A stretch of DNA of 52,326 bases from a bacterium (lineage in GTDB: Bacteria > Babelota > Babeliae > Babelales > Vermiphilaceae): positions 1 to 52,326 of the forward strand of contig JAJYDS010000008.1 in the NCBI GenBank assembly GCA_021777215.1, read 5' to 3'. This document shows, piece after piece, positions 19,100 through 32,626 of the stretch (positions are counted from its first letter, which is position 1; each line of letters starts with the position of its first letter). The notes under the pieces are model-generated. The model was not told the DNA's origin. It did not search any database and was given only the letters and a program-made list of their open reading frames with translations. Made by a program: the position numbers and the translations under genes.

Positions 19100-20359
19100 A
19101 TGAAAATCAAAAAAATTGTTGGGAGAGAAATTTTTGACTCACGAGGTATTCCCACACTTGAAGTATCACTTTTTTTGGATGAGGGACAACAGGTTGTGGC
19201 CTCAGTTCCTTCAGGCTTATCTAAAGGTTCTTATGAAGCCTTTGAAATGCGGGATGGAGGTAGACGCTTATTTGGCTTTGGTCTCACCAAAGCGATAGAT
19301 ATTCTCGATAGAGAAATTGCCCCCGTATTAATCGGCAAAGAGCCTGATGTGGTAGCTATGGATTTGGAGATGATTGCGCACGATGGCACTGTTGATAAAT
19401 CAAATTTGGGTGCTAATACGATTTTGGCAGCCAGTATCGCGGTGCTAAAAGCGCAGGCATTAGTCAATGATGTCCAGGCCTATGAGTTAATTGCTCGGCT
19501 TTGTGGTATTGAATCGGTAACTATGCCCTATCCCTTTTTTAATGTTATTAATGGTGGGGTTCATGCTGATAATAAGTTACATGTGCAAGAATTTATGGTT
19601 GTTCCGGTTAATTTGCCGACATTCCGTGCTGCATTTGAAGCGGGTATCACTCTCTTTCATGAACTAAAAGAAGTATTGCATGCGCATGGTAAATCAACCG
19701 CGGTGGGCGACGAAGGTGGCTTTGCGCCTGAGTGTGAAAGCGAGACGGAAGCTTTTGACTGTCTTATGGAGGCTATTGAGCGTACTAAAGAATCATGTGC
19801 AGCACATTTTGTTTTGGCTATTGATGTGGCAGCATCACAATTTTATGACGCAAAAAGCAAGCGTTACGAATGGTATGGCGCTCCTATAACTGCTGATGAT
19901 TTGATTGCTCTGTATGAACAATGGATTTCTCAATACCCTCTTTATGCTATTGAAGATGGGCTTGGAGAACATGATGTTGCTGGATGGCAGCGTATGATGA
20001 AAAAAATTGGCGATAACGTGCAGCTTGTTGGTGACGATCTTTTTGCAACCAATTCAGAACGTATTTGGACCGGTATTGAAAAAAAACTTGCAACAGCGGC
20101 AATAATAAAACCAAATCAGATTGGTACGGTGACCGAGGCTCTTCAAGCAATAGCTCTGTGTAAGGAACATGGCATGAATGTTATCGTTTCTCACCGATCA
20201 GGAGAAACTAATGATTCTTTCATTGCGGATCTTGCACTCGGATCCAATACAGGTGCGCTTAAAGCGGGTGGTTGTTCGCGCGGCGAACGATTGGCAAAAT
20301 ATAATCATTTATTACGCATAGAAGATGCGCTCGTGCTTTCAGCCTTGAACCCGACGTAA
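19100..20359 (+). CDS. eno: Enolase
   Basis: Interconverts 2-phosphoglycerate and phosphoenolpyruvate in glycolysis. The 419 residues carry the catalytic set: VQEFM, GDEGGFAP, the Asp of IDVAAS, IEDGL, GDDLFATN, IIKPNQIGT and SHRSGET. The mobile active-site loop reads SGLSKG at residues 38-43 where most enolases have SGASTG, and the family's AASEF is AASQF. The metal and catalytic ligands are kept, so activity is expected. AAAAAGGA is 6 nt before the ATG. The last 21 bp overlap the end of the convergent secretin gene. tpiA, another glycolytic gene, is at 33 kb. Confidence 0.95.
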   Translation: MKIKKIVGREIFDSRGIPTLEVSLFLDEGQQVVASVPSGLSKGSYEAFEMRDGGRRLFGFGLTKAIDILDREIAPVLIGKEPDVVAMDLEMIAHDGTVDKSNLGANTILAASIAVLKAQALVNDVQAYELIARLCGIESVTMPYPFFNVINGGVHADNKLHVQEFMVVPVNLPTFRAAFEAGITLFHELKEVLHAHGKSTAVGDEGGFAPECESETEAFDCLMEAIERTKESCAAHFVLAIDVAASQFYDAKSKRYEWYGAPITADDLIALYEQWISQYPLYAIEDGLGEHDVAGWQRMMKKIGDNVQLVGDDLFATNSERIWTGIEKKLATAAIIKPNQIGTVTEALQAIALCKEHGMNVIVSHRSGETNDSFIADLALGSNTGALKAGGCSRGERLAKYNHLLRIEDALVLSALNPT

Positions 20360-23224
20360 TGGATTTGGTTCATCTTTTATTAATTCTTTAATTTTATCTG
20401 CTGATGCCGGTTGTTTAGCTGTTGCAATTTGCGTCGTTTTTTGACCGTTGACAGGTTTTGATACAGTTACTTGTGTTTGGCTGTTGCCCTTACTTTCTTC
20501 TTTCGTGGTGGCCGAAATTTGTCCGGCAAGGGTTGTTTTTGGTAACTGTTTGTCTGGGGAGTTTATTTCTTGTTTGTTCACTCCTGTGATGGCGGGTGTT
20601 TTGGATGCAAGTTGAGTTACGGACTTTTCTGTTTTTTCAGATACCATTTTTGGTGATAATTGTGTTGTGACGAGTGTTTCGATTTGTGTTGGTTTAATGG
20701 TGTTTTGCGCCATGATGAGTGGTTCGATATGCTTTGCCTGGTTTTTTTCTACAAAAGATTTTATTTCTGACTCGGTATCCTGAGTGTCAGCTTTGAAGAA
20801 AATGCGGGTAACAGGATCTTTTACCGAATCGAAAAGATCGCCTTGTTCTGCCGACGCTTTGGCGAAATTTACATATTTTTGTGTTTCAGGTGAGACGCCA
20901 CTGCGGAGGTAGGGATGAATAATGATTGGCTGAATAAATACAGTGAGATTTGTTTTTGTTGCTTCTGAATTACGGCCCTTGAAAAACCAACCCAAAATGG
21001 GAATATCCCCCAAAATTGGTGTTTTTCTGATAGTGTCTGTTGTATCACTGCGGAGTAAGCCGCCAATGGCTAAAATATCTTTATCATGTACTATTGCATT
21101 GGTGTAAATATTACGAGTCGTTCTGTTAGCGGCACTATTATTAAGGTATTGGCTGATGTCAATCGTCACCTGCATACTAACCGATTGGGCTTCGCTACTA
21201 ATACGAGGTTTGAGTTTAACCGCTAAGTTGGCGGTTATGTATTTATTTTTTACTGTCGTAGAGCCAGCCGTACCCACTGATTCATCGGGTAAGTTACGTG
21301 ATTCACCAATCACGACAAGTGCTTCCTGGTTGTTGGTGGCTAATACGTGGGGGGCGGAGAGAATTTTTGTTTTGGATATATTTTTTAATATTTGAGCGAA
21401 GCACCAGGTCCTGCCATCATTGTCATTAAATGAAAAGACCATTGAACCAGCAGCGGTATCTGCCGCCTGGCTAGATTTTACCCCGCTTTCATCGAATACA
21501 CCAAGCAGATCGGCATTGATGCTTTTTGGGGTTCCCTGTGTTGGATCCAAAACAAGGCCATCACCATTTGGCGCCATACCAGCTTGAAGTTGTACGTCAC
21601 CAGGTAGAGGTATTTTTGCTGGGTTGCGCAATGAAGCCCCTAATTGTTTTATATCATCTAAAGTAAGGTCAGCGATAATAACTTCTATCAGTACCTGTGG
21701 CTGGGGTTGATCAATTTTTTCAAGCAATTCTCTAAGAACCCTCCAATCATCATAGCGAGCAGCGATAATGAGTTTGTTGCCACCAAATACAGGTGTATTG
21801 CCGCCATCACCTGTGCCAGCGGTTCCTTGATCAAGCATTGCCTTATCTGTCTGAATTATAACATCACCAAAGGTTCGTTGATTGCCCATTTGATTAAGTG
21901 GCGCGCCCTTTGCTTGCCCAGTACCAAGAGCTTTTGCTGAATCGATGACTTTATCAAGAGCTTCTTTTGCCTTATCCGCCTCTAGATATTGTAATTGATA
22001 AATATGTAAAATCGATTTTCCTGATTCGAGTTCTACATCAATATATTTATAAATAAAGTCTTGAATACGCTCAACTGCTTGCGCTTTTCCCAACACAATA
22101 AGCGAGTTTGTGCGTGTATCGGGAATAATCTTTACACTTTTTGAAAAATAGCTTGCATCACTTTGTTTTTTTGTGTCCATGCGATAGCGATCAAAACCTT
22201 CGGTGGTTTTGATGATATTTTCGGTGAATAATTTTGCAATTAATTCCGCAGATGCATGATGGAGTCGAATGACGGCAAGCTTTTCGGCGAAACCTGCTTT
22301 ATCAAGTTCTACCACAATTTTCATAATTGATTTGATGAGATTTGTCTTGGCACTAAAAATAATGCCGTTGGTTGACTGGTCGACTTTATACGAATCTTTT
22401 GGCAGTAGTGAACTGAGGAGTTTATTCAAATCATTATTAGCATCATCAGAAGCTTTGGCATTTGCTAAAAAGTAAACGTATTGAATCTGTTCTTCGCTAT
22501 TGGGAAGGTTTTCTGGTTTTGTGCCGATATAGATTTTTCCTGGTTCGCGCGAGATTGCATCAGTATTTTTTTTAATGACGTACATATCTCCTTTTGGGAG
22601 TAAGCTGTAATTGGCTATACTTAACATAATTCTGAGTAATTCCCAGGCTTGATCTAGGCTTACTTTTTCATCAATCGAGAGCGTCACGCTACTAGTAATA
22701 GCGTCTGCTCCTTGCGGGAGGAGAATGTTACATTCTTTTTTAGCAGATAAAAAATTTATAACATCAACTAACGGTTCATTGTTATACCGGAAGCTGATAA
22801 TTTTTGTTGGATCTTTTTTTGTTTTTTTATGGATTGGTTCGTTCTGTGCGGGGGCGCTTACTGGTTCTATGGCGATATTTTCAGTTATTGAATCTTGGAC
22901 TTCTTGATTATCCGGTTTGGCAATCAGAGAGTCTTGTCCTTTTAATTCTTGCGAGCTGGAGATAACGGGCGAATTTATAGCCTGACTAGCAGCAGCCGTG
23001 TCGGCCGTGTAAGAGTAATGAAAATTACTTAAAAGGCAGAAAATGCCTACAGTTATCAAGAGACTATTTTTTTGAAATAAAACAGTGTTCTTTGTATATA
23101 TACGTGCATTAATTCTGGTTTTCATTGATGAATAATCTCTCTGGTTCTGTTGATAATGGGTACCTATGTCAGATACTACTGTTTTTTGATGCATGGGTAT
23201 GGCGTTGAGTATTTTACTGTTCAT
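20339..23224 (-). CDS. Secretin (GspD/PilQ family), second copy of the operon
   Basis: A 961-residue outer-membrane channel protein. An N0/STN-like domain (about 140-215, IISFRYNNEPLVDVINFLS) is followed by N1-N3-type repeats and the secretin core (about 500-780). The core includes PHVLATNNQEALVVIGES and the hallmark GGLLRS...TPILGDIPILGWFFKGR. A long Thr/Lys/Gln-rich tail follows (about 830-961). A hydrophobic segment at about 55-75 would be the signal peptide if translation starts at Met35 (23122). ATG 23224 has GGAG upstream and lies 5 nt after the previous stop, which suggests coupling. The start is therefore unresolved. It is a paralogue of the other secretin gene in this operon. Confidence 0.9.
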   Translation of the reverse strand: MNSKILNAIPMHQKTVVSDIGTHYQQNQRDYSSMKTRINARIYTKNTVLFQKNSLLITVGIFCLLSNFHYSYTADTAAASQAINSPVISSSQELKGQDSLIAKPDNQEVQDSITENIAIEPVSAPAQNEPIHKKTKKDPTKIISFRYNNEPLVDVINFLSAKKECNILLPQGADAITSSVTLSIDEKVSLDQAWELLRIMLSIANYSLLPKGDMYVIKKNTDAISREPGKIYIGTKPENLPNSEEQIQYVYFLANAKASDDANNDLNKLLSSLLPKDSYKVDQSTNGIIFSAKTNLIKSIMKIVVELDKAGFAEKLAVIRLHHASAELIAKLFTENIIKTTEGFDRYRMDTKKQSDASYFSKSVKIIPDTRTNSLIVLGKAQAVERIQDFIYKYIDVELESGKSILHIYQLQYLEADKAKEALDKVIDSAKALGTGQAKGAPLNQMGNQRTFGDVIIQTDKAMLDQGTAGTGDGGNTPVFGGNKLIIAARYDDWRVLRELLEKIDQPQPQVLIEVIIADLTLDDIKQLGASLRNPAKIPLPGDVQLQAGMAPNGDGLVLDPTQGTPKSINADLLGVFDESGVKSSQAADTAAGSMVFSFNDNDGRTWCFAQILKNISKTKILSAPHVLATNNQEALVVIGESRNLPDESVGTAGSTTVKNKYITANLAVKLKPRISSEAQSVSMQVTIDISQYLNNSAANRTTRNIYTNAIVHDKDILAIGGLLRSDTTDTIRKTPILGDIPILGWFFKGRNSEATKTNLTVFIQPIIIHPYLRSGVSPETQKYVNFAKASAEQGDLFDSVKDPVTRIFFKADTQDTESEIKSFVEKNQAKHIEPLIMAQNTIKPTQIETLVTTQLSPKMVSEKTEKSVTQLASKTPAITGVNKQEINSPDKQLPKTTLAGQISATTKEESKGNSQTQVTVSKPVNGQKTTQIATAKQPASADKIKELIKDEPNPLRRVQG

Positions 23225-23229
23225 ACGCG

Positions 23230-23796
23230 CTACTCCGCAAGCTCAGATTGGGGTGATTTTTTTTGAAGTGTGGCAATAGTGAGTGCTACATCAATGGTTC
23301 GAGGGCGTCTTTTAGAACGGGTTATTTCTAGCTCTTTGGTATACACCAAGCTTTTCTTTTTTTCTATTTCTTCGAGCAAATCACAAACCTGCTTCATGTT
23401 CAGATCGTCAAAAGTTGCTTTAAGAATTACCTCGCGGTAAGTGGTATCTTTATCTACTTGCGAAACATTTATTAATTGGGGGGTTAAAGATAAATTTCTT
23501 AACACGTTTTCAAAATATTGTCTGATTATAAAATCTTTGTTTTCTTCTAGCAGCGCATCTACTTTTTGTTTTTGTTGATCAACAACTTCATTTTTTTCAA
23601 GAATAGTTCTCACTTCTTCGCGTTTTTCATTGACGTAAGAAATTTGTTTTTTAAGTGTACTTACCCGCTTGAGATAAAAAGCAACAAACAAAATAAGCAT
23701 TAAAAAAATTGCCGAAAGCGTTGCAATCAGATAGGTTCGAAATTCTTTTTCATCCAATTCCTGGATGAAGGTACGTATTTTATCAAGAATTTCCAT
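23230..23796 (-). CDS. PilO/GspM-like inner-membrane assembly protein
   Basis: The 188-residue protein has a short cytoplasmic N-terminus, one membrane helix (about 21-42), a coiled coil (about 45-90) and a small alpha/beta periplasmic domain. This is the layout of PilO and GspM, which link the cytoplasmic PilM/GspL module to the secretin. Sequence identity in this family is low, so the call rests on layout and position. Its ATG shares one base with the stop of the pilM/gspL-like gene (TAATG), and the secretin gene begins 5 nt after its own stop. Confidence 0.75.
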   Translation of the reverse strand: MEILDKIRTFIQELDEKEFRTYLIATLSAIFLMLILFVAFYLKRVSTLKKQISYVNEKREEVRTILEKNEVVDQQKQKVDALLEENKDFIIRQYFENVLRNLSLTPQLINVSQVDKDTTYREVILKATFDDLNMKQVCDLLEEIEKKKSLVYTKELEITRSKRRPRTIDVALTIATLQKKSPQSELAE

Positions 23797-25403
23797 TACG
23801 ATTCCTCGCTTTCTTTAAAGCGGAGTTCCACGTTATCAAATCTAATCTCTTGAGGTGGTTCTACTAGGCTGAATATTTTTGAATTATCAAGCGCATGAAT
23901 TAATAATTTGAGTTCAGGAAAATCTTTAACTTGAGCGCTCAAAACTATTTTGTCATCAGTGATGGTGAGTTTGTCGAGGTTAAATCCCAAAGCTGGCGCA
24001 TCGATCAAATTGGTGAGTTCCAGAAGATACTTTAAAAATGGTGCACCTTGGAATACTGAAACAATGTTTTTTTTCTCAGTTAATTTTTCTTTAGCGCTTT
24101 CAATGACATCGTCAAATGAAGTTCCCTCTATATCCTCAAATTTTTCTCTAAGAGCTCCTACAGCTTCTTTTTTGCTTGAGGTAAGAGCAAGATCTAATTT
24201 GCGTGTTTGCAAAAAAGTATGGAGACTTAAAAGGCTAAATAACACAAGAAATAAACTGCCTCCGACAATTATTTGTTTATCAATGATTGTGTTGCTTGTA
24301 TCAGTAAATTGATTTTTGCGCAGATTAAAATCTTCTGTTTCTCTGCAAGGAAGTGCTGTGCTTAGGCTTACTATGGTTGAGCTAGGGGGGGTGGCTACAT
24401 TTTCCAATTTTATCGAACTATTTTCAAAGAGTTTACCGATTTGAAATTTTTCGGTTGCTAGATGCGATTGATTTTCAATGAATAGTTCTATGCCTTTAAT
24501 TTCTGCCCCGCCGCCCAGAAGGATGAGTTTTGTTAGTGCTTGGCTGTTATCTGTCTGCATGGTAAAAGAACTGAGCGTAAAACTAATATCGCGCCAAAAA
24601 GCCGTCAAAGCGGTGTTCATGGCAGCGCTATAGTCAGGATCATCGGGTTTGAGTATGCCAAATCGAATGCTATTTTCGATGATAGTACTTGTAGGTAAAT
24701 GTGTTTGTTCGCTGGCTGTTTTTGCAATCTGTAAGGTGCCATGGGCAAGGGTACGAATGAAGCGCAGTTGCCCGTTTTGGATGTAAGCGATGCGTGTTGC
24801 ATTTTTTCCTATATCAATAAGAGCAGCACCACCAGTAAGTGCAGCATAGGTAGGAATTTTGAGATATAAGCCGTAGAGTGCAAATAAATCGACCGTGATT
24901 ATTTCAGGAGAAACGCCTGCGGCCGCAAATAGTTGAAGATGATTTACTAAATACTGATTTTGTACTGCTGCGACCAAAATCTCTACGCTTTTTTCTTCTT
25001 CATGACGCTTGGTGATGATAAAATCAATTGTCGCATCAGTGAGTTTGAATGGAAGTAACGGTTCTATCTCATAAGGAAGTACTTTTTTTATCTTGTCGTA
25101 TGATAAAAAAGGCAGCCGTAATTCTTTGAAGATAACATATTCGCTCGAGAGCGCCGAATGGATTGAGTCATATGTGTCTAAGGTGTGCAAAATTGTTTGA
25201 ATAGTTTTTGCTGCGCGCTCTTGATAAGAAGAGGCGCCATTTTCAATTTTTTCATCCAGGCATTTTTCAATGGTGGTCGTAGCGCCGGCGCAGCGAATTT
25301 GACTGGCGCTTATATGTGTTTTGCCTATATCAAAGCCAACAACGCGTTTGGGAAAAAGATAGTAATTTTTAATCTGTTCGGGCAAAAAAATATTTTTTAT
25401 CAT
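23796..25403 (-). CDS. PilM-PilN fusion / GspL-like protein
   Basis: The first part (about 1-345) has the actin-like fold of PilM/GspL, with a phosphate-1 motif VVGFDIGKTHISAS and a second nucleotide-binding segment GAALIDIGKNATRIAYI. A membrane helix (about 372-395) and a coiled-coil plus periplasmic domain resembling PilN follow. This combined architecture is what GspL has in type II secretion; type IV pilus systems usually split it into PilM and PilN. It would sit on the inner face of the inner membrane and bind the assembly ATPase, which is not encoded in this window. The start codon overlaps the stop of the upstream secretin gene (ATGA), so translation is probably coupled. Confidence 0.82.
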   Translation of the reverse strand: MIKNIFLPEQIKNYYLFPKRVVGFDIGKTHISASQIRCAGATTTIEKCLDEKIENGASSYQERAAKTIQTILHTLDTYDSIHSALSSEYVIFKELRLPFLSYDKIKKVLPYEIEPLLPFKLTDATIDFIITKRHEEEKSVEILVAAVQNQYLVNHLQLFAAAGVSPEIITVDLFALYGLYLKIPTYAALTGGAALIDIGKNATRIAYIQNGQLRFIRTLAHGTLQIAKTASEQTHLPTSTIIENSIRFGILKPDDPDYSAAMNTALTAFWRDISFTLSSFTMQTDNSQALTKLILLGGGAEIKGIELFIENQSHLATEKFQIGKLFENSSIKLENVATPPSSTIVSLSTALPCRETEDFNLRKNQFTDTSNTIIDKQIIVGGSLFLVLFSLLSLHTFLQTRKLDLALTSSKKEAVGALREKFEDIEGTSFDDVIESAKEKLTEKKNIVSVFQGAPFLKYLLELTNLIDAPALGFNLDKLTITDDKIVLSAQVKDFPELKLLIHALDNSKIFSLVEPPQEIRFDNVELRFKESEES

Positions 25404-27994
25404 GCGACTGCCCCTGTAGTTTCTTGCGGCTCAGATTTTTTTCTTTTTGCTTGGCGACGGCCTCGCTTGGCGGATTTTTTTGCTTTTTGTTCAGGGGTAT
25501 AGGTATAACCAAGCTGTTCTTTTGCATAGTCTTCAAATACTTTTTCGGTGTCGTCTTTTCCTGGGGTGAAGAACAGTTTATTTACCGGATCATGCAATGT
25601 TGAATCTTGTGCCATTTCCTTAATAACCTTATCGAAATCACGAACCCGTGAACGATTAACACGTCGTACTTCCTCTGGTGCATCCGGCCGTATGATCTGA
25701 CTTGAGATCAAAATCAGTAAATTGTCTTTTATTTGTACTTTTTGCTTATTTTTAAAGAGCCAGCCAAGGATTGGAATATCTCCTAGAATAGGTACTTTGG
25801 TGGTAATGTCTGATATATTATTTCTAATCAGACCACCAAGAGCGAGCACTTCTTTGTTAGCAACAATAGCACTTGTTTTGACTTGACGGTTAGTTTTAGT
25901 GATAACGCTTATTGGCTTTTGTGAGGTTGGATCAGTAACTGTTGTATCGGGCAAGAACTCGTTTAGTTCAACATTTACCGTTAATACAATTTTACCATCA
26001 GAGTTGATAAGCGGCGTTATTTCTAGTTTTAATAAAGCTGAATCATCAGCTTCAGCAGTTGTCTCATTTGAACCAGCGATTACGGTACCTGTTGGGATAC
26101 GAATTGTTGTTCCGACATAGACTTTTGCTGCGGTATTATTGGTAGTCGTAACGAATGGATTTGCAATGACTTGCGAATTTGATATTGTTTGCAAGATTTT
26201 AAAAATACCCCATATGCCGTATTTGTCTGAACCCATGGTAAGGACCGTACTGCCCGCACTACCTCCGCCAGCAACGAGATTAATTAAGTCGCCAAGTAAC
26301 CGCTGTACACCGCTGCCATTTGTATTTTCAACAATACCTCTTTGTGTTGATGGATCACCCCACCAGAATCCTGATGTTTGGAATTTAGCATTATTTCCCA
26401 GAAATCCGTTAGGGCCGGGAACTTTACTTCTAATCTGAGTCCCCAACTGTTTTGTATTATTAAGATTTATTGAAAGAATTAATACTTCAATAGCCACCTG
26501 TGCTTGTGGTTCATCAAGACGCTCAATAACTTCTTTTACTTGGAGAAAATCTTCATAATCACCTTTTACAATTATCTTGTTGGTGGCAACTTCAGGAATA
26601 AAACTCATTGGTTTTAAATATTTATCACTGCCGCGCACGCCGCCATTTTTTCCTGCCTCTGAATCCTTACCAAACTGGGTAAGGTTGGTCATAATAGCGG
26701 CAATTGTTGTAGCATCAGCATATTTGAGTTGATACGTATGGAGCGGCGAATAGGGCTGATCGAGCTCAACGTCAACATATTTAACTATAAAATCTTCAAT
26801 TTTTTTAAGCGCGTCTTTAGGTCCGAGTAAAATCAAGGTGTTGGTACGCGGTTCAGCGATAATGCGTGCGTTTTCAGGGAAATACATTGATGTTGGTTGT
26901 TTTCTGGTGGTGAAAAAGCGTGCAAAATCTTTATCGTCTGATTGAGTTAAGCTTTTATACAGATCTTCTACTGTTTTTGCATCAACCCGTTTAAGCTTTA
27001 GTACGACCATCTCCTGTGGCATGGTTACTTTGTCAAGCTCTTTGACAATCTCCATTAATTTTTTGATATTGTATGCCTTATCAATAATCAGTATTGCCTT
27101 GGCATCTTGCAAAGGGATAGCGGGAGCTTCTTTGCTTTTGAGCATATCTACCACTGAACCAATTGCTTCAATCGTGCTGTTAGCTATGAAATAAACATAG
27201 CGAATAATTTGATCATTGTCGGGCAATAAAGAAGGGTCGACGCCTATGAAAGTTGGTTCAGGAGATTTTTGGGCTGAGGAAATTTGTGAAATTTTATAAA
27301 ATTTAGGATCAGCCGTAGGTACTATGGAAAAACCGGAAATGTAGAGGAAGGTGATAAACAAATTCCATGCTTTCTCGCGCGAGAGCGGTTCATTTGTTTT
27401 AAAGGTAATTTTATTACCCTTAATGCTTTTGGCCGCTGGATCTAACGGGGAAATGTTATCATCTGAGATGAAGGTGATATTAAAAAATTCCTCAATCTGT
27501 GTTACCAGATTTTTTAAATCCGCATTTTCAAAATGAAATTCAAGCGTGTCGCTTTCGCTGATTTTATTGTCATCACTGGATGTTGTCGTTTGTGTGTTAG
27601 TTTTAGACCCTACTTTTTGTTTTTGTGGAGCTGGTGGTCCTTGCGGTGTTATGTGTTGCGGTATGGTTGTCTCGCTTGCATTTAGCTTTTGTTGTGGTGT
27701 AGAGAGTGCCGTTGATTGAACTGTTTTTCCTGGCGTTGCAACTGACGGTGTTTTTAATGTTTCATTGAGCGTTTGAATCGGTGAATCCACGTCGATGTAT
27801 GTTTCGGTGCCCCGTGCCTTTGGTTCGGTGTGTTGGGCATACAGTGATTGTTCCTCAGGAGCTCCTGAGGTAAGCATGCCATAGGTGGAGGATTGGCTTG
27901 CAGTTTTTCCTGCGCGCCGCGCGAAAATTTCGCTTGTGCATAGTAAACTTACTATGAGCGTGCATTGAATAATTATTGTATACCTACCGTTCAT
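25400..27994 (-). CDS. Secretin (GspD/PilQ family), first copy of the operon
   Basis: 864 residues. A signal peptide (about 1-25, ending SEIFA) is followed by a Pro/Thr/Gln-rich linker (about 30-145), an N0-like domain (about 150-235), N1-N3-type repeats and a secretin core. The core has NPFVTTTNNTAAKVYVG and GGLIRN...VPILGDIPILGWLFKNK. It would form the gated outer-membrane pore of a type II secretion or type IV pilus machine. The C-terminus is basic (AKKSAKRGRRQAKRKK). It shares domain order and several motifs with the second secretin but not the long C-terminal tail. It begins 6 nt after the gspC-like stop. Confidence 0.92.
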   Translation of the reverse strand: MNGRYTIIIQCTLIVSLLCTSEIFARRAGKTASQSSTYGMLTSGAPEEQSLYAQHTEPKARGTETYIDVDSPIQTLNETLKTPSVATPGKTVQSTALSTPQQKLNASETTIPQHITPQGPPAPQKQKVGSKTNTQTTTSSDDNKISESDTLEFHFENADLKNLVTQIEEFFNITFISDDNISPLDPAAKSIKGNKITFKTNEPLSREKAWNLFITFLYISGFSIVPTADPKFYKISQISSAQKSPEPTFIGVDPSLLPDNDQIIRYVYFIANSTIEAIGSVVDMLKSKEAPAIPLQDAKAILIIDKAYNIKKLMEIVKELDKVTMPQEMVVLKLKRVDAKTVEDLYKSLTQSDDKDFARFFTTRKQPTSMYFPENARIIAEPRTNTLILLGPKDALKKIEDFIVKYVDVELDQPYSPLHTYQLKYADATTIAAIMTNLTQFGKDSEAGKNGGVRGSDKYLKPMSFIPEVATNKIIVKGDYEDFLQVKEVIERLDEPQAQVAIEVLILSINLNNTKQLGTQIRSKVPGPNGFLGNNAKFQTSGFWWGDPSTQRGIVENTNGSGVQRLLGDLINLVAGGGSAGSTVLTMGSDKYGIWGIFKILQTISNSQVIANPFVTTTNNTAAKVYVGTTIRIPTGTVIAGSNETTAEADDSALLKLEITPLINSDGKIVLTVNVELNEFLPDTTVTDPTSQKPISVITKTNRQVKTSAIVANKEVLALGGLIRNNISDITTKVPILGDIPILGWLFKNKQKVQIKDNLLILISSQIIRPDAPEEVRRVNRSRVRDFDKVIKEMAQDSTLHDPVNKLFFTPGKDDTEKVFEDYAKEQLGYTYTPEQKAKKSAKRGRRQAKRKKSEPQETTGAVA

Positions 27995-28000
27995 ACCTGG

Positions 28001-29119
28001 TTACTCGATAATAGGAGTTATGGCATTTCTTCTGCCCTGTTGCAACATATTTCTGCGTTCTTGCTCGCGAATGTCTTGTGCTGTAGGAGCAAATTTATAT
28101 TTTTCTTCTAAAATTTTTTTTTGTTCTTGTTTGAGTCTTTCTGGTCGGAGTGTTGCTTGTGTTGTGGATTCAATCGAGGTATCAGCTTCTTTTACAGGTC
28201 TAAAATCTTGAAGAGTATAGTGTAACATTATTTCTTCGTTATTTCTCTGCGCCGTAACTATTACCGTGTCATCTTCATTCATCGAGGTTATTTTTTTGTA
28301 AATAGCGACACGGTTTGCTGTTGACGTTGTTGGTATACCATTGATTGCCGTGATAAGGTCACCTGTTTGCAATCCGAGACTTTGTGCAAATGCGTCATCC
28401 TCTGGATGCCCTATGCGAACCCCTATGCTGGCACCTTTTTTGTAGAGTGTTGTTATATCGAAGATATCGATAAAATGAGCAAGGTTGTTAACACGTTGGA
28501 CAAAAAGATCGGCATTGACCAAGAACATATTTTCACCGATTTTTTGCACAACTTCTTGCCACTCGCCAGTTGCTTTATATGAAGGATCTGCTTGAGCATC
28601 TTTTTCTCGCAGATAAAGCACCTCTTGTTGGCCGTTAGAACGTAAGAAAATAACCTTATTATTTAAAATGCGCACGAGCTGCGCATCTTCTATAGCATCG
28701 CCCTCTTTATATATTCGTTCTGTATTTGTCTTATTATCGGCAATAATAGCTCTATTTTTAGCACTATTATTGAGAACAACCGTAATGCCTTTTAAGGTAA
28801 TATTAAGAGGATCAAAAAATTCTGGTTTAGGAGGTTCAGGGATAGCAACCATTTTAGGCATTGGCGGTTGTGGCATTGGACCTATTAAATCCTGTTCTTG
28901 TGGCGTCGGCATTTCTTTTTCATAGGTGCCAAAAAGATCATGTTCATAAATTTTTTTTGTAGAAATTTTAAGTTCTGATTCCTTTAGCGGTTGTCCGCTT
29001 TCGCTGATTTCAATAGATTTTTTGAGAGGCACGGCTGGCCGCGAAAAGAGTATAAAGATGAGGGTGAAAAATATACAAAGGAGTAAGAAGCTGTTCAGAA
29101 TCCAGAGAGGACGATTCAT
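28001..29119 (-). CDS. GspC-like protein with a C-terminal PDZ domain
   Basis: 372 residues from ATG 29117-29119, which follows AAGGAA at 6 nt; an in-frame TTG just before is not needed. One N-terminal membrane helix (about 5-27) is followed by a periplasmic linker and an HR-like domain (about 110-175, LKGITVVLNN...IIAD). A PDZ domain lies at about 225-310 (GVRIG...LGLQTGDLITAINGIPTT). This is the order seen in GspC, which connects the inner-membrane platform to the secretin and selects cargo. It is the first gene of the operon, and a promoter precedes it. Confidence 0.85.
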   Translation of the reverse strand: MNRPLWILNSFLLLCIFFTLIFILFSRPAVPLKKSIEISESGQPLKESELKISTKKIYEHDLFGTYEKEMPTPQEQDLIGPMPQPPMPKMVAIPEPPKPEFFDPLNITLKGITVVLNNSAKNRAIIADNKTNTERIYKEGDAIEDAQLVRILNNKVIFLRSNGQQEVLYLREKDAQADPSYKATGEWQEVVQKIGENMFLVNADLFVQRVNNLAHFIDIFDITTLYKKGASIGVRIGHPEDDAFAQSLGLQTGDLITAINGIPTTSTANRVAIYKKITSMNEDDTVIVTAQRNNEEIMLHYTLQDFRPVKEADTSIESTTQATLRPERLKQEQKKILEEKYKFAPTAQDIREQERRNMLQQGRRNAITPIIE

Positions 29120-29150
29120 CAATAGTTCCTTTTTGTCGACATTCTTTCAC

Positions 29151-29180
29151 ACAATACCCGGCTTGTTGTTATTTTGTCAA
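29151..29180 (-). promoter_or_regulatory. Promoter of the gspC-secretin operon
   Basis: On the minus strand TTGACA (29175-29180), 18 bp, TATTGT (29151-29156). A second TTGACA lies directly upstream (29182-29187). Transcription would begin near 29144, leaving a leader of about 25 nt with AAGGAA before the gspC-like ATG. Confidence 0.65.
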
Positions 29181-29245: not shown

Positions 29246-30235
29246 CTATGGTGATGGGATAGTGGCAAGCATTTTCTGAATAATTTGATCAGGTGTTATT
29301 TCTTGAGCCTCCGCTTCATAAGAAAGCACAAGACGATGACGCAATACTGCAGGAGCTATCGCTTTTACATCGTCAGGAGTTACAAAGTGCCGTTTTTTTA
29401 AAAAGGCATGTGCTTTTGCTGTGTGATATAAGGCAAGTGTTGCACGTGGTGATGCACCGTAATGAATATATGGTTTTATATCTTTTAGATTGTATGTTTC
29501 CGGTTTTCTGGTGGCAAATATAAGCGATACGATATAATCAGCTACTTTTTCATCAACATAAACAGCTTCGACTAATTTTTGTGCAACAAAGATATCTTCT
29601 TTTGTGAGTACCGGTGAAAGTGAATCGATGGTAGCTGTTTTTTTTATAATCTCTTTTTCTTCTTGCATGCTTGGATAGCCCACGAGCAATTTGAACGTAA
29701 AACGATCAATTTGTGCTTCAGGAAGGCGGTACGTTCCTTCTTGCTCGAGCGGATTTTGGGTGGCAAATACTAAAAATGGTTCATCCAACTTGAAAGAATG
29801 TGATCCGATGGTTACTTGATGCTCCTGCATAGCTTCAAGCAGAGCTGCTTGCACTTTTGCTGGCGCGCGATTAATTTCATCGGCTAAGATGAGATTGGCA
29901 AAAATTGGACCCTTTTTAGTCTCAAATTCGTGTGTCTTTTGATTAAAAATAAGAGTGCCAATTAAATCAGCGGGCAATAGATCAGGGGTAAATTGAATGC
30001 GATTAAAGGTAAGGCCCAATGCTTTATTAATTGCCTTAATGATGGTTGTTTTGGCAACACCTGGAACACCTTCGAGCAAAATGTGACCGTTGCTCAAAAT
30101 GGCAATCATAATGAAATTAATAATTTCTTGCTGGCCAACAATAACTTTACCGATTTCAATGGGTAGCCCCTGGAATCGAGTGCTTTCTTCTTTTATTTGG
30201 GCAATAAGAGTTTGCGTTGATTCTAAATCTTTCAT
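29246..30235 (-). CDS. MoxR-family AAA+ ATPase
   Basis: 329 residues. Walker A GVPGVAKT (56-63), Walker B LILADEINRA, a sensor segment FATQNP and the MoxR-specific C-terminal lid with RATLALYHTAKAHA are all present. MoxR ATPases act as chaperones that help assemble or activate metal- or cofactor-containing and surface protein complexes. They usually work with a VWA-domain protein and a DUF58 protein, and neither is encoded here. It lies upstream of the gspC operon on the same strand, but a good promoter separates them. Confidence 0.92.
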   Translation of the reverse strand: MKDLESTQTLIAQIKEESTRFQGLPIEIGKVIVGQQEIINFIMIAILSNGHILLEGVPGVAKTTIIKAINKALGLTFNRIQFTPDLLPADLIGTLIFNQKTHEFETKKGPIFANLILADEINRAPAKVQAALLEAMQEHQVTIGSHSFKLDEPFLVFATQNPLEQEGTYRLPEAQIDRFTFKLLVGYPSMQEEKEIIKKTATIDSLSPVLTKEDIFVAQKLVEAVYVDEKVADYIVSLIFATRKPETYNLKDIKPYIHYGASPRATLALYHTAKAHAFLKKRHFVTPDDVKAIAPAVLRHRLVLSYEAEAQEITPDQIIQKMLATIPSP

Positions 30236-31018: not shown

Positions 31019-31810
31019 CTATTTTGTAGGTGCTAATTCTTTTTGGATTGGGCCACTGGTAAGCCCGCGGATAAATTGATAAATATAGGGATTATCTGAC
31101 TGCCAAATAGTTTTTGCATCGCCGGTAAATTTAATGACTCCTTCGTGTAGGAGAGCAACCTGGTCAGCATAGTTAAAACTTTCTACATCGTGCGAAATAA
31201 TCACCGAGGTGACGCCCAATTTTTTCTGCATGTCAGCAATCAGTTCATGTATGACGCGTGAGGTAATCGGATCAAGGCCGGTGGTTGGTTCATCGTAGAG
31301 AATAATGCTTGGATTTGCTACTAATGTGCGTGCAAGACCAACGCGCTTTTTCATGCCACCAGAAAGTTCGGCGGGATATTTGTGTAAAAGAGACTCTTCG
31401 AGGTGTACCATAGTAAGATTTTTTTTTACGATAGGCAATACCTGCTCAACTGGCATGCCTTTTTCTAGTAGCGTAATGCCAATGTTTTCAAATACTGTTA
31501 AAGAATCGAGCAAGGCAGCAAACTGAAATACATAGCCTATTTTTCCAAAAAATGTGCATAAACGATCTTCTGATAGCTTGGTAATATCAATGCCATCGAT
31601 AACAATGGCGCCTGAGGTTGGTTTAATGAGGCCAATAAGTTGTTTGAGCAAAACCGACTTGCCTTCTCCTGAGCGTCCAATTATGAGCGTTGTTTTGCCG
31701 CTTGGTATGTCGAGGGTAACGCCTCGGGTGATCCAGGTTTCATCGAATTTTTTTTTCAGATCAATGATTTTTATAGCCATAAGAATCGTGTTTTTTGTAG
31801 CTTTTGGCAT
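31019..31810 (-). CDS. ABC transporter ATPase, MlaF-like
   Basis: 263 residues with Walker A GRSGEGKS (45-52), Q-loop FQFAALLDSLTVFEN, signature LSGGMKKRVGLARTL, Walker B IILYDEPTTGLDP and the switch His in VIISHDVESF. The sequence around TVFENIG and the adjacent MlaE-type permease place it with MlaF ATPases, which power lipid transport between the two membranes. A second possible start is Met11 (31780, MAIKIIDL). The longer form keeps the 27-nt gene spacing seen throughout this cluster, and neither start has a clear ribosome binding site. Confidence 0.9.
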   Translation of the reverse strand: MPKATKNTILMAIKIIDLKKKFDETWITRGVTLDIPSGKTTLIIGRSGEGKSVLLKQLIGLIKPTSGAIVIDGIDITKLSEDRLCTFFGKIGYVFQFAALLDSLTVFENIGITLLEKGMPVEQVLPIVKKNLTMVHLEESLLHKYPAELSGGMKKRVGLARTLVANPSIILYDEPTTGLDPITSRVIHELIADMQKKLGVTSVIISHDVESFNYADQVALLHEGVIKFTGDAKTIWQSDNPYIYQFIRGLTSGPIQKELAPTK

Positions 31811-31837: not shown

Positions 31838-32626
31838 TTACAGGCATTCGATGAGCTTGGTAAGAAAATAGTTTGCAATAACAATCGAGATAGAGCTAGC
31901 TACAACGCTTTGTGTTGTGGCTTTTCCCACGCCGCTAGCACCTCCCGCCGTATAATAACCTTTATATGTTCCCACCCAGGTGAGGATGAAGCCAAAAACC
32001 GTTGCCTTGCAAAGGCCGCTTGCAATATCAGAAAGATCGACAAGTGTCTGTATGCTATTTACATAATCATCGGGGCTTAATCCTAGGACAAAGACACAGA
32101 TAATGTATCCGCCCAATATGCCAAAAATCATAGAAAAGAGTGTTAAAAGTGGGACAATAATAGTGCCGGCAATAAGGCGCGGGACTATAAGATATTGAAA
32201 TACATCTATACCGAGCGTGCGTAATGCATCGATTTGTTCCGTGATGCGCATGGTGCCAATTTCGGCAGTAATTGATGACCCTGCGCGTCCGGTGACCATG
32301 AGCCCGGTGAGTACCGGTCCCAATTCTCTTACCATGCTCAGGGCAACAATGGCGCCAATAAGCTGCTCGCCGCCCACGCGTTGAAAGCCAACATACGTTT
32401 GCAATGCCAGCACCATACCGGTAAATAGACCAGTCAGAATGATAATAACCAGTGAGTCAATGCCGATATGGCTCATTTGCACAGCGACTTTATTGATTCT
32501 TAGTTTGGTAGTCGTAGCTGTTTTTACCGCTTGCAAAAGGAAAAGAGTGAACGAGCCCAAAGTATGGCATATATGCAGTGTTGCACAACCAATAAAGTCA
32601 ATGCCCGCAGTAATCGTCATACGCAT
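31838..32626 (-). CDS. MlaE-family lipid ABC transporter permease
   Basis: A 262-residue inner-membrane protein with about five to six helices and the MlaE signature region VTGRAGSSITAEIGTMRITEQ. It would form the membrane channel of an MlaFE-type complex that moves phospholipids to or from the outer membrane. The periplasmic MlaD substrate-binding subunit, normally the next gene, is not in the cluster and must be elsewhere or absent. It follows secG by 26 nt and precedes the ATPase gene. Confidence 0.9.
   Translation of the reverse strand: MRMTITAGIDFIGCATLHICHTLGSFTLFLLQAVKTATTTKLRINKVAVQMSHIGIDSLVIIILTGLFTGMVLALQTYVGFQRVGGEQLIGAIVALSMVRELGPVLTGLMVTGRAGSSITAEIGTMRITEQIDALRTLGIDVFQYLIVPRLIAGTIIVPLLTLFSMIFGILGGYIICVFVLGLSPDDYVNSIQTLVDLSDIASGLCKATVFGFILTWVGTYKGYYTAGGASGVGKATTQSVVASSISIVIANYFLTKLIECL

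Follow-up and report, generated by a model that had tools for sequence, protein, structure and literature searches.

Why should one operon encode two different secretins around a single inner-membrane platform? The question is raised by the window, the whole 52,326-nt stretch of DNA analysed here from the phylum Dependentiae (Babelota/TM6) (contig JAJYDS010000008.1), in which a first-pass annotation had read, between positions 20339 and 29180, the order gspC, secretin, pilM/gspL, pilO/gspM, secretin, and had left two options for the pair, a mixed channel or two channels sharing one platform. We found all five open reading frames in that order on the minus strand, with junctions of +6, -4, -1 and +5 nt that agree with the overlaps or gaps of at most 6 nt first described. 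The first-pass reading is partly supported, and both of its options are still live. The two secretins, called D1 and D2 below, are complete, different from one another and paired throughout the phylum, and the retention of both genes suggests a gate that needs both.

Two complete GspD secretins in one platform operon

The first secretin gene, gspD1 (25400..27994, minus strand like the other four), encodes 864 aa and matches PF00263, PF03958 (Secretin_N) twice, the N0 domain PF21305 and TIGR02517, while gspD2 (20339..23224, minus strand) encodes 961 aa from its listed start and matches PF00263, PF03958 twice and TIGR02517. Both proteins cover positions 2-168/169 of the PF00263 profile (E 1e-34 for D1 and 3e-32 for D2), and against TIGR02517 (gspD) they score 279 and 281 bits along about 590 of its 600 positions, where the curated cut-off is 351, with the D2 alignment starting at profile position 3. 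AlphaFold2 (AF2) models and profiles together give the same domain order for D1 and D2, namely N0-N1-N2-N3-barrel-C-terminal helices. The models have a mean predicted local distance difference test score (pLDDT) of 70 for D1 and 63 for D2 and a low predicted template-modelling (TM) score, and the top PDB match for both is PulD (6hcg); since domain placement is uncertain and the TM-scores of these matches are low, we used the models for domain content only. In a split secretin one partner is without the barrel, and the first-pass annotation had named the loss of the membrane-strand region from one copy as a fact that would count against its reading; both copies, however, have a full PF00263 domain and barrel strands, and these strands and the GGL...P.LG.IP.LG.LF motifs are invariant or nearly so in D1 and in D2.

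Near the C-terminus, about 57 residues past LGxIPxLG, both proteins also have a DP[IV]xxxFF box, which reads DPVNKLFF in D1 (residues 802-809; 25568..25591, minus strand) and DPVTRIFF in D2 (residues 803-810; 20795..20818, minus strand). The box is found in 48/50 D1 and 43/48 D2 sequences, its Asp being invariant in both, and in 0/71 GspDs from outside the phylum. Beyond it D2 has the Thr/Lys-rich tail noted at first pass, of about 150 aa with 13% Thr and 13% Lys, in which residues 856-940 have a pLDDT of about 30 and are predicted to be disordered. Relatives differ in the length and composition of this tail, which ends in a conserved LKxL....NP segment. The tail is real, but because it is so variable and predicted to be disordered it is not the distinguishing feature of D2.

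Between the two secretin genes lie gspL (23796..25403, minus strand; 535 aa), which matches PF11104 (E 6e-22) and PF05134 T2SSL (E 9e-7) and has a PilM-type actin-like domain, a single membrane segment as read from the sequence and a periplasmic domain, and the PilO-like gspM (23230..23796, minus strand; 188 aa), for which the profile match is weak (NF040576 GspM, E 5e-5) and the assignment is also supported by a size and position kept across 56 operons. The operon opens with gspC (28001..29122, minus strand), which encodes an inner-membrane GspC with a PDZ domain (PF11356 T2SSC, E 6e-10) and also matches NF041515 GspC_delta below the cut-off in the profile search (E 3e-21); GspC and GspL are above the Pfam cut-offs. 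Its listed start is TTG, with an ATG one codon further in at 29119. A sigma-70-like candidate, TTGACA-18-TATTGT, lies at 29180-29151, and since our scan found such sites no commoner than in shuffles the promoter of the operon is unproven. At the other end, the last 21 nt of gspD2 overlap a convergent enolase gene, and its start may be Met34 (about 23125) rather than Met1, since Met1 lies well ahead of the hydrophobic stretch that resembles a signal peptide. No PilP was seen in the window operon, which does have gspC with its PDZ domain.

The first-pass annotation had also reported that ATPase, platform and pilin genes are absent, which is true of the operon and not of the genome (1.2 Mb, 92% complete), in which D1 and D2 are the only secretins. 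Its suggestion to look for gspE, gspF and gspG elsewhere was borne out: on contig C23 the genes gspF-G-H-I-J-K form a cluster, with an MCE (MlaD) gene after it, and a GspE-type ATPase of 569 aa lies on contig C1. The GspG of C23 is of type II secretion system (T2SS) type (PF08334, E 2e-10), while GspJ and GspK were assigned from position and conserved order, GspK being without a Pfam match. Since these remaining parts are encoded elsewhere in the genome, the T2SS is not incomplete; the genome has GspD-type secretins, a GspC/L/M platform, GspE and GspF, and pseudopilins G to K. By this gene content the window operon is the outer-membrane and platform operon of a complete Dependentiae T2SS. It departs from the usual T2SS in one trait, a single GspD per system, which is not strictly defining and is replaced by two per system phylum-wide; GspG is present once per genome in nearly all genomes with D1 and D2.

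A second, pilus-like set is scattered through the genome: C18 encodes GspF-B, C10 encodes a 386-aa ATPase, pilins are encoded on both C36 and C12, and C41 has minor-pilin-like genes. The motor gene of this ATPase was observed to follow a gene for a 195-aa N-terminal-domain-like protein (L040, 5791-7553, plus strand). In the family of the window genome the pilus-like set is without a secretin of its own, and in families f8, f9, f13 and f16-f19 a PilQ-type secretin (about 450-620 aa; L009-L034, e.g. L010, L115) is encoded separately.

Distribution, origin and constraint of the pair

To see how general the pair is, we scanned 101 Dependentiae genomes, all from one order, of which 68 are near-complete (at least 90% complete, at most 5% contaminated). 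Secretins are present in 96/101. Among the near-complete genomes, 66/68 have at least two, two have none (G088 and G017) and not one has exactly one; lone secretin matches occur only in genomes that are 87% and 70% complete. Single-secretin relatives without a tail had been foreseen as the finding that would speak against the first-pass reading; no near-complete genome has a single secretin, and it is only the tail that proved variable. Taken from separate assemblies throughout the phylum, 56/56 operons have the gene order C-D1-L-M-D2. In L074 and L075 one secretin is broken into two frames, and L077 and L078 stop within D2. The PilM family search is too insensitive here to follow GspL, missing the divergent copy of G013. 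In G004 and G011 an additional tandem D2 copy makes a third secretin (L093, 1536-3887, minus strand; L094, 13942-16308, plus strand) that groups with D2 in the tree; three secretins were counted in G007 and G012 as well.

Outside the phylum the first-pass statement that known systems have one secretin per operon held for every locus and genome sampled. A D1-based GspD search of named genomes gave 79 loci, 8 from Dependentiae and 71 from others, mainly Pseudomonadota, Bdellovibrionota, Myxococcota, Thermodesulfobacteriota and Nitrospinota. The pair was recovered in 7/8 of the Dependentiae loci, the eighth contig ending too early, and a second secretin was found in 0/71 of the outside loci within a flank of up to 9 kb per side. 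Across the 31 whole genomes scanned from other bacteria, which together have about 100 secretins, no pair was separated by less than about 39 kb.

In two trees, whose outgroups left out the matches to EtpD of the enterohaemorrhagic E. coli plasmid, D1 and D2 group as a single clade apart from the GspDs of other phyla, with Shimodaira-Hasegawa-like approximate likelihood-ratio test (SH-aLRT) supports of 99 and 100, and the Dependentiae PilQs form a separate clade (SH-aLRT 100) that excludes them. Within families f1, f2, f3, f5, f8 and f12, D1 and D2 are each a supported group (99 and 99), and D2 including f13, f16 and f17 is one clade at 93 under a mixture model. Approximately unbiased (AU) tests on 27 rows did not reject a single clade for D1 (p 0.34) or for D2 (p 0.39), but they did reject an independent duplication in f5 (p 0.004). 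Such a duplication at the base of f13/f16/f17 may have occurred (support 62); a shared one is not rejected there either. Since the gene order is identical throughout, the evidence favours a single duplication inside the Dependentiae lineage as the likely source of D1 and D2.

The two copies have since diverged to an identity of only about 27%. In four pairs of relatives the ratio of nonsynonymous to synonymous substitution rates (dN/dS) is 0.03-0.16 for both D1 and D2, values that are rough in three of the four pairs because dS is high there, and on these estimates both secretins are under purifying selection. Mean identity among relatives is 37% for D1 and 33% for D2, with D2 the faster in 1282/1326 genome pairs. 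In the N3 region and loop, G451, R454 and Y459 are conserved in D1 specifically, and W494 and other sites are conserved in D2 specifically, so that the two are not interchangeable in constraint. The evolutionary distances of D1 and D2 have a partial correlation of 0.66, the highest among the gene pairs of the operon.

One secretion machine, one pore or two

Which machine the two secretins serve is indicated by what is kept and lost with them. In G013, G016, G018, G022, G023, G024, G031, G032, G035 and G077 there is a lone GspF, of T2SS type beside gspG-K, and yet both secretins are present, and in G013 and G035 there is also just one ATPase match of the GspE-type family. In G088 (97% complete, 10 contigs) GspF-A, GspG and both secretins are absent, and GspF-B and the MCE gene are kept. 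Because genomes with only the T2SS GspF keep both secretins and G088, without a T2SS, has lost both, the pair follows the T2SS, and we are confident on this pattern that D1 and D2 serve one T2SS machine. Three genomes run counter to this: G017 keeps gspF-K, yet no secretin was found in it, and G060 and G095 have D1 and D2 but GspF-A, GspG and the MCE gene were not found. In each of the three a whole block is absent, as an assembly gap would leave it; such a gap is likely, though unproven, in G060 and G095, and may also account for G017.

We suggest that D1 and D2 would both be needed for one working outer-membrane pore. In the simplest form they would be subunits of one mixed ring, which would dock through its N0 domains onto the shared GspC/L/M platform; the C-terminal DP[IV]xxxFF box common to both could bind the same outer-membrane partner, and the pseudopilus would push folded proteins through the D1/D2 pore. 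On the sequence evidence we give a mixed ring, rather than two rings of one kind each, an about even chance, and what favours it over independent rings is that single losses are missing from these reduced genomes, that the platform and the box are shared and that the rates of the two are linked. The stronger proposal, which we put forward tentatively, is an obligately hetero-oligomeric T2SS ring that combines two GspD paralogs, both of full length, and that became fixed early in the history of the phylum. Several considerations weigh against a mixed ring. None of its supports is direct, the contact between D1 and D2 being one that we infer, and each copy keeps all the domains for forming a ring of its own. 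In the structures known so far, GspD rings are homomeric and often 15-fold, and because of that 15-fold symmetry a strict alternation of two subunits would be impossible. The correlation of D1 and D2 distances is confounded by homology, such that shared ancestry and similar constraints may suffice to produce it, and the DP[IV]xxxFF box could be simple inheritance.

The strongest competitor of the mixed ring is a pair of homomeric channels, D1 and D2, that would either compete for a common GspC/L/M/E/F machine or be assigned to it by location, their exit routes differing in substrates, timing or host-facing surface. Complete N0-N3 domains and a barrel in each copy are what such channels would have, the columns particular to D1 (G451/R454/Y459 in the N3 loop) and to D2 (W494) would fit divergent gates, and the faster evolution of D2 and its re-duplication in G004 and G011 point the same way. 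However, two channels of this kind should now and then lose one member in reduced genomes, and none of the 68 near-complete genomes has just one; we regard separate channels as a real possibility, if somewhat doubtful. Far less probable in our view is that one copy acts as a scaffold, plug or assembly factor of the other instead of as a working pore. The unequal rates and the long disordered tail of D2 with its conserved end would be in keeping with this, but the barrel strands and secretin motifs, needless in a protein that forms no pore, are kept in both.

Similarly improbable, and a shade more so, is a division in which D1 serves the T2SS and D2 a second, type IV pilus-like system that in the window's family lacks a PilQ of its own. 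The window genome does have a second GspF, a second ATPase and pilins and yet no third secretin, and a paper on Chromulinavorax (PMC6561590) raises a derived PulD channel as a possible passage for pili. Nevertheless, families f3, f5 and f6 and others without a second GspF retain both secretins, families with a separate PilQ retain both as well, and G088 has the second GspF but neither secretin; on this presence/absence pattern D2 as the secretin of the pilus-like system was rejected. The idea that the pair is peculiar to one genome, through a late duplication, decay or an error of assembly, has next to no standing and is refuted by the 56/56 operons from independent assemblies, the divergence of D1 from D2 and the purifying selection on both.

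Neighbouring genes, precedents and meaning

Directly upstream of gspC lies a gene for a MoxR-type AAA ATPase (29246..30235, minus strand; PF07726, E 9e-64), which adjoins gspC in 49/56 loci and was seen beside 0/71 GspD loci outside the phylum. Further upstream are an MlaF-like ABC ATPase (31019..31810, minus strand; PF00005, E 2e-32) and an MlaE-type permease (31838..32626, minus strand; PF02405, E 1e-82), neighbours for which a role in secretion is only putative. MlaF, usually with MlaE, was observed upstream of MoxR-gspC in 16/23 loci of sufficient length, and almost every gspF-K cluster read has an MCE/MlaD protein after gspK (e.g. L041, 12492-14132, plus strand). Mla lipid-transport genes are in this way linked to both T2SS clusters, and G088 retains its MCE gene despite the loss of the T2SS.

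To our knowledge, the bacterial secretins whose structures have been solved each form their ring from a single polypeptide. The GspD-alpha and GspD-beta of E. coli belong to separate T2SS operons, not to one platform operon. Their presence as two kinds of GspD in one species is described in PMC10329019. Like the T2SS GspDs (PulD, XcpQ, EpsD and ExeD; PDB 6hcg, 5wln, 5wq8 and 6i1x), which are the best PDB and hidden Markov model matches of both D1 and D2, the Dependentiae copies have the order N0-N1-N2-N3-secretin-C-terminal helix and an operon with GspC, L and M; they differ in being two paralogs per system and in their additions, which are the DP[IV]xxxFF box, long linkers near the N-terminus and tails at the C-terminus. 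With the PilQ of type IV pili they have in common a secretin pore and PilM/PilO-like platform relatives, but the window operon has neither a PilQ-type secretin nor a PilMNOPQ order, and the PilQs of Dependentiae lie at other loci and in a separate clade.

The nearest precedents are the mitochondrial GspD/GspDL and the rhizobial RhcC1/RhcC2 pairs, neither of which has two complete secretins. Some protists have a mitochondrial T2SS for which both GspD and GspDL have been proposed, and a multi-protein pore was suggested (PMC10128026). The likeness is in two GspD-related pore proteins per T2SS; there, however, each is part of the C-domain only, with the N-domains as separate genes, whereas the Dependentiae copies are bacterial and of full length. 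In rhizobia, type III secretion likewise has two secretin-related genes in one system, RhcC1 being the N-terminal part only and RhcC2 coming from a Tad system (PMC3459982), that is, a split through partial replacement and not two complete GspDs. In the open-access literature that we searched, which takes in neither supplements nor the bulk of the subscription papers, we found no description of paired secretins; published accounts of Babela and Chromulinavorax speak of a T2SS or of a derived PulD channel and do not note the pair in their main text. For the Dependentiae, a whole phylum of intracellular parasites, the pair would offer a test case for the transition from a homomeric to a heteromeric ring after duplication, and it may serve as the bacterial comparison for the mitochondrial T2SS with its two GspDs.

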